Shown one piece after another: positions 7,200 to 43,363 of a stretch of DNA of 43,363 nucleotides. The position numbers and the translations under genes are program-made. This DNA is from Acidobacteriota bacterium (GTDB lineage Bacteria; Acidobacteriota; Terriglobia; Terriglobales; Acidobacteriaceae). Each line of letters starts with the position of its first letter. Positions within the stretch are counted from its first letter, which is position 1. Below the pieces are notes generated by a model, which was not told the origin of the DNA, made no database searches, and worked only from the letters and a program-made list of their open reading frames with translations. The stretch spans positions 1 to 43,363 of the forward strand of contig JAJYFB010000010.1 of assembly GCA_021785495.1 (NCBI GenBank). Direction: 5' to 3'.

Positions 7200-8480
7200 T
7201 TAGCCGACCAGCGTCTCCTTGTCGAAGAGGCTCGGCGGCAGCACGATGCCGGCCACCCGCAGCCGCTCCAAAAAGCGGGGACGGATGCGGCTGGGCACGA
7301 ACGCTCCAATGACGCGGCCGTCCGGCCCGATTCCCTTCTTCTGGAAGGAAAAAATCTCCTGCATGCTGATCACGTTCTCTTCCATGCCCGTGATCTCCGA
7401 AATATTCGTCACCTTGCGTGTGCCGTCGCTCATGCGCGTGGCCTGCACAACAATACTAATGGCCGAGGCGATCTGCTGGCGCACAGATTTTTCAGGAAGA
7501 TTCATGTTCGTCATGGCCACCATCGATTCCAGGCGGGAGATGGCGTCGCGCGGCGTGTTGGCGTGGATGGTGGTCATCGAGCCCTCGTGGCCAGTGTTCA
7601 TGGCCTGGAGCATGTCGAAGGCCTCTTCGCCGCGGATCTCGCCGATGATGATGCGGTCCGGGCGCATACGCAGGGCGTTGATGAGCAGTTGGCGCTGACG
7701 GATGGCGCCCTGGCCCTCGATGTTCGGCGGCCGCGTCTCCAACCGCACGATGTTCTCCTGCGCCAGACGCAACTCGGCCGCGTCTTCGATCGTTACCATC
7801 CGCTCGTTGTTGGGAATGTACTGCGAGAGGATGTTCATGAAGGTCGTCTTGCCGGCGCCGGTGCCGCCTGAGATCAGGATGCTGATGCGCGCCCGCACGG
7901 CCGACGACAGCACCTCCATCATCTCCGGCGAGATGCTCTTCAACTGCACCAGTTGATTGGCCGCCAGCGGGCCGGTGCCGAAGCGGCGGATCGAGACCGA
8001 CGGTCCGTCGAGGGCCAGCGGCGGAATGATCGCGTTCACGCGCGAGCCATCGGGCAGGCGCGCGTCCACCATCGGCGAGGACTCGTCCACGCGCCGGCCG
8101 ACGCGCGAAACGATGCGGTCGATGATCTGCATCAGGTGCCGGTCGTCGCGAAACGAGGTGTTGACCTTCTGCAAAAGGCCGCCCTTTTCCACGAAGACGT
8201 GGTCCTTGTCGTTGACCAGAATGTCGGAGATCTTCGGGTCGCGCAGCAGGGGTTCGAGCGGTCCCAGGCCAAAGACCTCGTCCAGCAGGTCGGCGTGAAT
8301 CTTCTCCTGTTCGTCGAAGTTCAGCGGCACGCGCTGCTCGGACATGATCTCTTTGATCAGTCCCGAGACGGCCTGCCGGGCCTGGCTCGAGTTGACGCGC
8401 GAGAGCTTCTCCAGATCCAGCTTCGAGATCAGCGTCCGGTGAATCTCCGCTTTATAGGCGTCCAAATTCAGCAGTTCCAC
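7200..8480 (-). CDS. cpaF: CpaF/TadA family secretion ATPase
   Basis: '[39 protein letters not shown]...[48 protein letters not shown]'. Confidence 0.95.
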
Positions 8481-24925: not shown

Positions 24926-25135
24926 GAGCCACTTGCAAAATGCACGGAACGATCACGGGATTTGCAAGGGCATGACCTGAGCCGTGCCGTACTCCCCCTG
25001 GAAGGAATGGGGCGGAAGAGGCGCTGTACAACCATGAAAAAGGAAGAAAAAACAACAAAATCCGTGGAAGCAGGGGCGAAAGCCCCATTGATTTCACTCG
25101 TCTTACGGCCCGGCGAAAGCCATGCCCGTGTGGCA
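24926..25135. repeat. Dispersed palindromic repeat, copy 1 (inverted-pair composite)
   Basis: GAGCCACTTGCAAAAT start; reverse-oriented module (AGGGCATGACCTGAGCCGTGCCGTA...CTGGAAGGAATGGGGC) then forward module (GGGGCGAAAGCCCCATTGATTTCACTCGTCTTACGGC). Confidence 0.7.
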
Positions 25136-38934: not shown

Positions 38935-39021
38935 CGCACGCTGGAAGAGGCGCGCCGCGCGGAGCCGGCATCCTCCCGCCGGACGCACGGCGTGCCTCTT
39001 CGCCGGTTGGTGGCGAAGACC

Positions 39022-39474
39022 ATGGCGGATTTGCAGTGGAAGAAAAAGTACGCGGTCGGTGTTGCGTCAATCGATGACGAGCACCAGGAGATGTTTGCCG
39101 CGGTGCGGGCGCTGGAAGCGGCGATGAACCGCAAGGCGGACGCCGCGGAGATGGGCGAGTTGCTCAAGACGCTTGCCGCAGCGACCGTCCGGCACTTTGC
39201 CGACGAAGAGGCGGTGATGCGCGAGGCGAAGTATCCCGGCATCGGCCTGCATGCAGCCAACCACCAGCGCCTGCTGGAAAAGATCGACGCCTTTGTCGCG
39301 CGGCACGTCCAGAACACTGCGGCCCTGAATGTTCATGCGCTGAACTTTCTGCGCGACTGGCTGGTCATTCACGTCGAGAACGACGACGCGCGGCTTGGTG
39401 AATGGCTGAAGGACCGGGCGCGGGAACAGGCGCCCGATCCGAAAAAGGCGCCGGCTCTGGATCGAAGCGCATAG
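39022..39474 (+). CDS. Bacteriohemerythrin (second copy)
   Basis: 'MADLQWKKKYAVGVASIDDEHQEMFAAVRALE', 'VRHFADEEAVM', 'GLHAANHQRLL', 'WLVIHVENDDARL'; iron-ligand positions retained. Confidence 0.95.
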   Translation: MADLQWKKKYAVGVASIDDEHQEMFAAVRALEAAMNRKADAAEMGELLKTLAAATVRHFADEEAVMREAKYPGIGLHAANHQRLLEKIDAFVARHVQNTAALNVHALNFLRDWLVIHVENDDARLGEWLKDRAREQAPDPKKAPALDRSA

Positions 39475-39505
39475 AGACCGCGCGTCGAGATTGAAACAGG
39501 TCTTC

Positions 39506-39657
39506 GAGCCACTTGCAAAATTCAGTTATGGAGCGTAAGCAGGAGAAAAAACCTCCCTCAGTGGCTAAAGCCCCATTCATTTCAGGCGTCTCACGGCACG
39601 ACTCAAATCGTGCCCTTTCAAGTTTTGCGACCGTCGATTGAATTTTGCAAGTGGCTC
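39506..39657. repeat. Dispersed palindromic repeat, copy 2, with perfect 19-bp terminal inverted repeats
   Basis: GAGCCACTTGCAAAATTCA (39506-39524) and TGAATTTTGCAAGTGGCTC (39639-39657); internal TGGCTAAAGCCCC and GGCACGA-CTCAAA-TCGTGCC. Confidence 0.92.
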
Positions 39658-39779
39658 CTCCGTCTCGATCAAAATCAGAGTGGGTCGATTCCTGCGGCAA
39701 CGTTCTGCCGTTGCTGTGACCCTCAGGAAGCGGCGGCCTTGCGCAACTTCGGTGAGGACGCAGTCTCGCTGGTTTTGTG

Positions 39780-40478
39780 TTAGACGGGCGGAGGCGCGTC
39801 GACCACCGGAACTCCGGGCGGCGGCGTAAAGCGAAAGAGCGTGGCCGGGATGGGCGCGTCAGGCTGCTCGCCGGTGAAGCGAAAGCGCGTCGTTGCCCCG
39901 CTGATCTCGACCACTTCAATCGTGGCGATCGCGCCCTCTGCGGTGACGGCCAGCGAGAGCCGCGCCACACGGTTCTCCTGCCCTTTGGGTACTCCGGCGA
40001 GCGTGTACAGGCCGTTCGAGAAGCCCGCGATCTTCAACCCGTTCAGTTCCTTTTCGAGCTTGGTGCGGCCCAGCAGAAACTGCAGTGGCGAGCGCAGATC
40101 GTCCAACTCCTTGGCCGGAACGCGCTGCACCTGCGCATCGCCCTTGGCGTAAAGCCAGGCATACTTGCCATCGAGCAGAAAAATCTTTCCCTCGGGCGCG
40201 GAGTATTGCCAAAGCATCTGTCCGGGCTTGCGCAGAAAGAGCGTTCCCGCCTCGGCGCGCGTCATGCCGAGGCCCGCGTACTCTTCGCGAAAGCCCGCCT
40301 TGAGCGAATGCAGCCGGTCGTAGTGGCGATCGACGCGCGCGGCCAGCGCCGCAGCCGTCAGCGCGGACGCCGGCTCGCTGACAGCGGGGATCGCTGCCAT
40401 CACGGCCAGCGCCGCAGCGGCGCAGGCGGCCAGAAATCTCCGCCGGCTGAAAAAAACTGAAGGGACCGTTGGGTTCAT
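39780..40478 (-). CDS. LolA-like outer membrane lipoprotein carrier family protein
   Basis: Signal sequence; 'ALAARVDRHYDRLHSLKAGFREEYAG', 'AGTLFLRKPGQMLWQYSAPEGKIFLLDGKYAWLY', 'SPLQFLLGR'. Confidence 0.88.
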   Translation of the reverse strand: MNPTVPSVFFSRRRFLAACAAAALAVMAAIPAVSEPASALTAAALAARVDRHYDRLHSLKAGFREEYAGLGMTRAEAGTLFLRKPGQMLWQYSAPEGKIFLLDGKYAWLYAKGDAQVQRVPAKELDDLRSPLQFLLGRTKLEKELNGLKIAGFSNGLYTLAGVPKGQENRVARLSLAVTAEGAIATIEVVEISGATTRFRFTGEQPDAPIPATLFRFTPPPGVPVVDAPPPV

Positions 40479-41014
40479 TGCAGATCTTGCGTGCAATTGG
40501 TGCCGCCGGTGGGATCGTACTTGGGGCTGCCGCCAAACTGGTCGGTGCAGAAGCCGCGGTTGCCCGTCTTGCCCGGCGCCACGGGAACGGCCGTCAACTG
40601 GTAGCCGGTGATGCGGTCCGTTCCATTCACGGTCACCTTCTGGCAGTTCGTGATCTTGAAGAGATAACCGGACTTGAAGCCCGAAGAGGCCAAGTCGTTA
40701 TCGAGAAGCTGCGCCGCCGTCGGCGTCGGCAAGCTTGTTCCGGGCAGCCCGCCCAGGGACTTCAGGTCGCAGGCATAGCCATTGGCCGGGTAGGTCGAGT
40801 CGTACTCGATCTCAGCTTGCGTAATCACGCGCAGCGAGTTGATGGCCGAGACCTCGTCGGCGCGAATCTTCATCGAGCCGATGGTCTTCATCGCCATCAA
40901 CATCAGAATCAGGATGACGGCGATGACGATCAGCAGTTCCATCAGCGTAAAGCCGTCGGGCGCAACGATGCGCCGGGCGCGATGGCCAGCGGCGAAGCAT
41001 GTCTTGCGATTCAT
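40475..41014 (-). CDS. Type IV pilin-like protein (prepilin N-terminus)
   Basis: 'APDGFTLMELLIVIAVILILMLMAMKTIGSMKIRADEVSAINSLRVITQAEIEY'. Confidence 0.9.
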   Translation of the reverse strand: MNRKTCFAAGHRARRIVAPDGFTLMELLIVIAVILILMLMAMKTIGSMKIRADEVSAINSLRVITQAEIEYDSTYPANGYACDLKSLGGLPGTSLPTPTAAQLLDNDLASSGFKSGYLFKITNCQKVTVNGTDRITGYQLTAVPVAPGKTGNRGFCTDQFGGSPKYDPTGGTNCTQDLQ

Positions 41015-43254: not shown

Positions 43255-43363
43255 GAGCCACTTGCAAAATTCAGTTCCGGTGTATTCTGCGAGAAGAAAA
43301 ATCTCCCGCAGGGGCTAAAGCCCCATTCATTCCAGGTATTTTACGGCACGACTGAAGTCGTGC
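43255..43363. repeat. Dispersed palindromic repeat, copy 3 (runs off the window)
   Basis: GAGCCACTTGCAAAATTCAGTT... GGGGCTAAAGCCCCATTCATTCCAGG...TTACGGCACGACTGAAGTCGTGC, matching copy 2. Confidence 0.9.

Follow-up and report, generated by a model that had tools for sequence, protein, structure and literature searches.

The element and its genomic setting

The window (the whole stretch of DNA that was analysed, 43 363 nt in length) carries a 152 bp element between two convergent genes: a hemerythrin gene (38992–39474, + strand), past which the element begins after 31 bp, and a lolA-like gene (39780–40496, − strand), from whose end it is separated by 122 bp. The features of this locus, and those of the related sequences in the window, are as follows.

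39502–39505, no strand: left target-site flank CTTC, an imperfect duplication with the right flank CTCC
39506–39657, + strand: full-length MITE copy of 152 bp, as judged from its end repeats, whole-genome matches, target flanks and neighbouring genes
39506–39524, + strand: left terminal inverted repeat GAGCCACTTGCAAAATTCA; the same ends are found on the 1453 bp insertion sequence of locus L099
39556–39621, + strand: REP-type core with two palindromes and the tags CCTCAG...CTTTCAA (64.6 bits to the core profile)
39563–39572, no strand: first palindrome, R1, GGCTAAAGCC
39595–39614, no strand: second palindrome, R2, GGCACGACTCAAATCGTGCC, of the form GGCACGA-N6-TCGTGCC
39639–39657, − strand: right terminal inverted repeat, the exact reverse complement of the left
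39658–39661, no strand: right target-site flank CTCC
24926–24944, + strand: relic MITE end with one mismatch
24962–25013, − strand: degraded inverted core after the relic end at 24926
25071–25127, + strand: extra core copy beside the relic, of RAYT-flank-like form
43255–43363, + strand: second full MITE copy of ~151 bp, which runs past the window to contig base 43405

The initial annotation had described a non-coding element of 152 bp with perfect 19 bp terminal inverted repeats and two internal palindromes, and this description holds: both palindromes are present, and the element is without coding capacity and sits between verified neighbouring genes. In the family consensus R1 reads GGGGCTAAAGCCC(C), from which this copy has decayed slightly. 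As a single strand, the element is predicted to fold strongly, with a fold better than those of 200 of 200 shuffled sequences (z = −7.6 with RNA parameters and −4.3 with DNA parameters).

Related copies in the window and the genome

The end sequence occurs four times in the window when up to three mismatches are allowed, against an expectation of 0.01. Related copies had been reported at 24926 and 43255, and both exist. The copy at 43255 is full-length, with the target duplication CGGC and a gap of 10 Ns inside, and the one at 24926 is a relic that consists of one end and a degraded core. In the whole genome, which its relatives place as a metagenome-assembled genome of Acidobacteriota, the proposed search with the 19 bp end returned 143 sites (≤2 mismatches) and none for the reversed control, and the 152 bp query gave at least 45 matches, with several further copies cut by contig ends. 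The family is clearly not limited to three copies, nor are its ends unconserved, either of which had been named beforehand as an outcome that would speak against a mobile element.

The MITE copies fall into seven clusters, and most belong to clusters of 90–99% mean identity. The spread of the MITE appears to be recent, because several members of one cluster are identical and the clusters have such high mean identities. In three loci (L024, L009 and L010) the copies are chimeric, with a left half from one subfamily and a right half from another, which suggests recombination or conversion between MITE copies.

Target duplications and insertion sites

The search for target-site duplications that had been proposed with the annotation yielded an exact 4 bp duplication in 35 of 51 end pairings, compared with 1.05 expected from shuffled flanks; the pairings are ends within 400 bp of each other and include a few that are nested or overlapping. 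The copy at 39506 is unlike most others in that its duplication is inexact (CTTC/CTCC). At locus L011, a 141 bp copy with the duplication GACG is nested inside another copy, and removal of the nested copy together with one duplication leaves an intact 151 bp element that is ~94% identical to other copies. This removal amounts to a direct empty-site comparison. The 4 bp duplications of the family to which the 39506 element belongs (class A) are non-specific in sequence and do not follow the YTAR target of IS5 type. As read from their sequences, the copies are shown by these comparisons to have moved by transposition with 4 bp duplications.

None of 42 classified insertion sites lies inside a predicted gene, whereas ~25 would be expected if positions were drawn at random from these loci; genes were predicted with a model that had been trained on genes verified by Pfam. 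With regard to gene orientation, 13 copies are in convergent, 15 in tandem and 6 in divergent settings, which is close to the split for random intergenic positions. A preference of the copies for convergent gene ends was considered and rejected on this split.

These data bear on the explanation that the element is a selected regulatory or structural sequence, for example a bidirectional transcript end or a gyrase- or IHF-type site, that was placed by selection and not by transposition. The strong fold, the strictly intergenic sites and the position of the 39506 copy between convergent genes are what such an element might display. However, neither the target duplications nor the nested copy can be explained without transposition, and there is no enrichment between convergent genes. 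Moreover, we found no terminator-like site inside the element, and Rfam models gave no matches at gathering score within the window. We consider this explanation very improbable, and favour a transposed element.

A candidate partner insertion sequence

The initial annotation had also called for a transposase with matching ends. We scanned GTDB genomes for the exact 18 bp end, and the matches listed include Acidobacteriota, Chlamydiae, Alphaproteobacteria and others. One pair of such ends, at locus L099 (Acidobacteria SKS5.bin94), delimits a 1453 bp insertion sequence with GGAT on both sides, whose 383-amino-acid protein carries DDE_Tnp_1 and DUF772 domains. The best model for this protein is NF033551 (IS1182), with 110.6 bits against a cut-off of 270, and the IS5 model gives 76.5 bits against a cut-off of 140. 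As the scores fall below both curated cut-offs, the transposase is classed as IS1182/IS5-like only. Relatives of the transposase are encoded beside this end in several phyla.

The genome that carries the 39506 element yielded no intact partner transposase, only a decayed piece that is collinear with the insertion sequence from its end inward. This IS1182/IS5-like piece, at L133 (G000:C205, ~7892–8456), has a variant end and is the sole partner-like sequence found in this genome. From the matching ends we infer that an IS1182/IS5-like transposase would act in trans on the MITE. In DBS1-1.bin77 (L074:2378–3508, G025), a related insertion sequence with the ends GAGCCTCTTGCAAAATT seems to be inserted in a class A MITE, of which the left part alone is visible.

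MITEs of other phyla share the same ends and 4 bp duplications and have different interiors. Those of Waddliaceae are 162–163 bp long and ~82% self-complementary over their length; those of 163 bp, for example the MITE at L130:5406–5568, look as if they were produced by fold-back copying. No separate copy of the Waddliaceae interior was evident outside MITEs within the loci examined.

A REP-type core conserved across the genus

Positions ~40–116 are the only part of the element that is widely shared with further species of the genus. With a covariance model of this core, each of the 36 genus genomes sampled was positive, the genome of the 39506 element among them, as were three genomes from other families of the class; none of 14 genomes scanned from the order's other family was positive. 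Up to ~86 core matches were scored per genome in this census. Among 79 distinct core sequences, the R1 and R2 helices are paired in 97.4% of cells, and in R2 an A-U pair is exchanged for G-C in 20 of the 79, a test that relatedness can inflate and in which several pairs are invariant.

R1 and R2 are different palindromes, whereas a REPIN is an inverted pair of one REP. Likewise, the GTAG tag is absent from the consensus of an 84-sequence core alignment. The core occurs with two kinds of tags, CCTCAG...CTTTCAA in the MITE-type form versus TGGCAG...TTGTTA or TGACAC in the form that flanks RAYT genes.

The core flanks genes for RAYT tyrosine transposases

On contig C115 of the genome that carries the 39506 element, an open-frame RAYT tyrosine transposase gene has the core in inverted orientation on both sides. 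This gene and its repeats (L061) are situated at the 3′ end of an ORF that by eye resembles glycine dehydrogenase subunit 1. Among relatives, the core is present on both sides in 9 of 20 RAYT-class loci (L189, L190, L192, L194–L198 and L203), and in none of 29 other, stronger-scoring Y1-transposase loci taken from them. All ten core-flanked proteins have the HUH motif, and these ten RAYTs form one group in the tree (support 78/87, 80% of bootstrap trees), in which long branches are present.

Since the core is inverted around RAYT genes, we regard the MITE interior as a RAYT-associated REP-type repeat, but not as a strict REPIN. The initial suggestion of a MITE or REPIN-like element can thus be kept for the MITE, on the strength of ends, duplications, copies and the matching insertion sequence, and for the REP-type nature of the interior; a strict REPIN is not what the two differing hairpins make.

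It might be argued that RAYT moves the entire element as a REPIN, with the ends as no more than an outer stem, given that the core flanks RAYT genes and that one such gene is open-frame in this very genome. However, 4 bp duplications and exact end-to-end units indicate staggered double-strand cutting, and transposition of the IS200/IS605 Y1 type is not known to produce target duplications of this kind. The ends are also those of a DDE insertion sequence, and in other phyla they surround interiors unrelated to this one; the core hairpins differ from each other and lack the GTAG tag. We therefore give this proposal almost no credence, and favour movement by a DDE transposase.

One core within seven classes of ends

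Seven classes of ends were distinguished around core copies of the genus sample. Of its 78 copies, 42 carry ends of one of these classes on each side; the other 36 carry none. An earlier set gave 29 of 58 core copies with end classes versus 0 of 58 for reversed flanks. Because the classes were derived from the very data in which they were counted, target sites are the better test. Besides class A, the core is found inside MITEs with six kinds of ends, five of which show YTAR-type target flanks; for these five (classes B, C, E, F and G), YTAR is present at 35 of 66 flanks compared with 1.0 expected. Classes B, C, F and G have a common layout, with few exceptions, in which the left arm is ~36–41 bp and the right arm ~21–24 bp. 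The genome of the 39506 element has the core within ends of class A and, at three inspected loci, within those of class C. A search for an insertion sequence that could be the partner of class C yielded none among the sites listed in six genomes. Automatic flank alignment for end repeats, a weak test, placed 19% above the 95% null, and classes were instead assigned by class-by-class counting with target-site checks.

Because seven end classes enclose one core, the ends appear to have been replaced around a fixed core or to have diverged with their insertion sequences, so that in this genus the core would be the constant part and the ends the part that varies.

A parallel in Bryobacterales

A metagenome-assembled genome of Bryobacterales (L089/G060) contains a palindrome that is unrelated to the core and occurs 244 times, with no occurrence for the control. 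It is often arranged in inverted pairs and is found on both sides of a tyrosine transposase gene. In several elements of 127–132 bp, the REP pair is enclosed by the ends GAGCCA(A/C)TTGCAAAATTC, which are identical to those of the 39506 element or differ at one or a few bases. At L255 (G060:C163), a tyrosine transposase with a weak Pfam hit has NHVH and YVVEEQ residues and is flanked by inverted REP pairs on both sides; by our own comparison, these are residues that PMC6006769 lists for its class 3.

The Bryobacterales MITEs at L256–L262 and L273 lie at palindromic GAGTACTC(C) flanks, which suggests either longer ends or a specific target site. The two systems are alike in that a RAYT-linked REP pair is carried inside nearly the same ends. 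They differ in that the REP sequences are unrelated, and also in target behaviour, because the Bryobacterales flanks carry the palindromic AGTACT(C) site whereas the duplications described here are scattered 4 bp sequences. We consider the Bryobacterales case to be an independent parallel of a REP enclosed in MITE ends.

These observations allow an assessment of the possibility that the element is an ordinary MITE derived from an insertion sequence, with an incidental interior: the core would have been present by chance in one ancestral MITE, the ends would have drifted with the partner insertion sequences, and the likeness to RAYT flanks would go back to a single old insertion and have no further role. 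Four end classes with the same arm lengths are expected of one scaffold, and about half of the sampled core copies have recognisable ends. On the other hand, the remaining 36 copies have no end class, no other part of the element is as well conserved as the core, in which R2 shows compensatory change, and an unrelated REP pair occurs within near-identical ends in Bryobacterales. An incidental interior is conceivable, but we judge it rather unlikely.

Proposed origin and movement

Taken together, the element is quite probably a non-autonomous DNA transposon (MITE) that is moved in trans by a DDE transposase, with a constant REP-type core and differing ends. In the mechanism we propose, the DDE transposase of an IS1182/IS5-like insertion sequence would recognise the 18–19 bp ends in trans, move the 150 bp unit and insert it at staggered cuts to yield 4 bp target duplications, and the copies that survive would be those in intergenic DNA. 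The double hairpin of the core is homologous to the repeats found beside the RAYT tyrosine transposase genes of one clade. The probable reason for the persistence of the core is that its hairpins render an intergenic insertion tolerable, by ending transcripts or by insulation, roles that have been proposed for REPs. Occasional RAYT-driven movement of the core is possible, although MITE-type and RAYT-flank tags differ.

Enclosure of the core could have come about by several routes: RAYT may have put the core into existing MITEs, ends may have been captured around the core, or one old scaffold may have diverged. For classes B, C, F and G, the common arm lengths speak for a single scaffold; overall, the Bryobacterales example points to capture on more than one occasion. 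As a tentative generalization, in which our confidence is less than even, the RAYT-type double hairpin may be an interchangeable module that moves by two routes, namely spread as a REP by RAYT and repeated enclosure by, or acquisition of new ends from, DDE insertion sequences. The MITE families described here would then have a constant core and replaceable ends, and the same union would have arisen separately in Bryobacterales.

Comparison with known systems

Bacterial MITEs of DDE insertion sequences include RUP, Correia/NEMIS, Nezha and MITEAba12. The present element resembles them in being short and non-coding, with perfect terminal inverted repeats, target duplications, many copies and ends that match an insertion sequence. 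It is unlike them in that one conserved interior recurs within several end classes, whereas it is ordinarily the ends that define a family of MITEs, and in that its partner is IS1182/IS5-like with a non-specific 4 bp target.

In common with the REP, REPIN and RAYT systems known as REPtrons (PMC2817692, PMC3116915), the core is an abundant extragenic palindrome that lies inverted on both sides of a RAYT gene. In contrast to REPtrons, each unit has two different palindromes and no inverted pair of one REP, there is no GTAG tag, and many core copies reside inside DDE-transposon ends. The TIRtrons (TIRYT) are acidobacterial tyrosine transposases flanked by inverted repeats, some of them double palindromic, of repeated families, according to the parts of PMC3733652 consulted (see also PMC6006769). 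The inverted repeats around tyrosine transposases are shared with the core, which is likened to those repeats by their description and not by sequence; in the same parts of PMC3733652, no mention was found of their enclosure in MITE ends.

A search that covered part of the literature found no description of REP-type cores inside several MITE end classes. The MITE itself is of a known kind, and what is new is a constant REP-type core with varying ends. Among bacterial repeats, REPs are kept apart from MITEs, and the transposases of the two classes are regarded as unrelated. MITEs in which a constant REP-type hairpin is combined with DDE-transposon ends of several kinds provide a concrete meeting point of the two, and make it possible to test how MITEs originate and change partners, and whether internal hairpins aid their movement or their tolerance.
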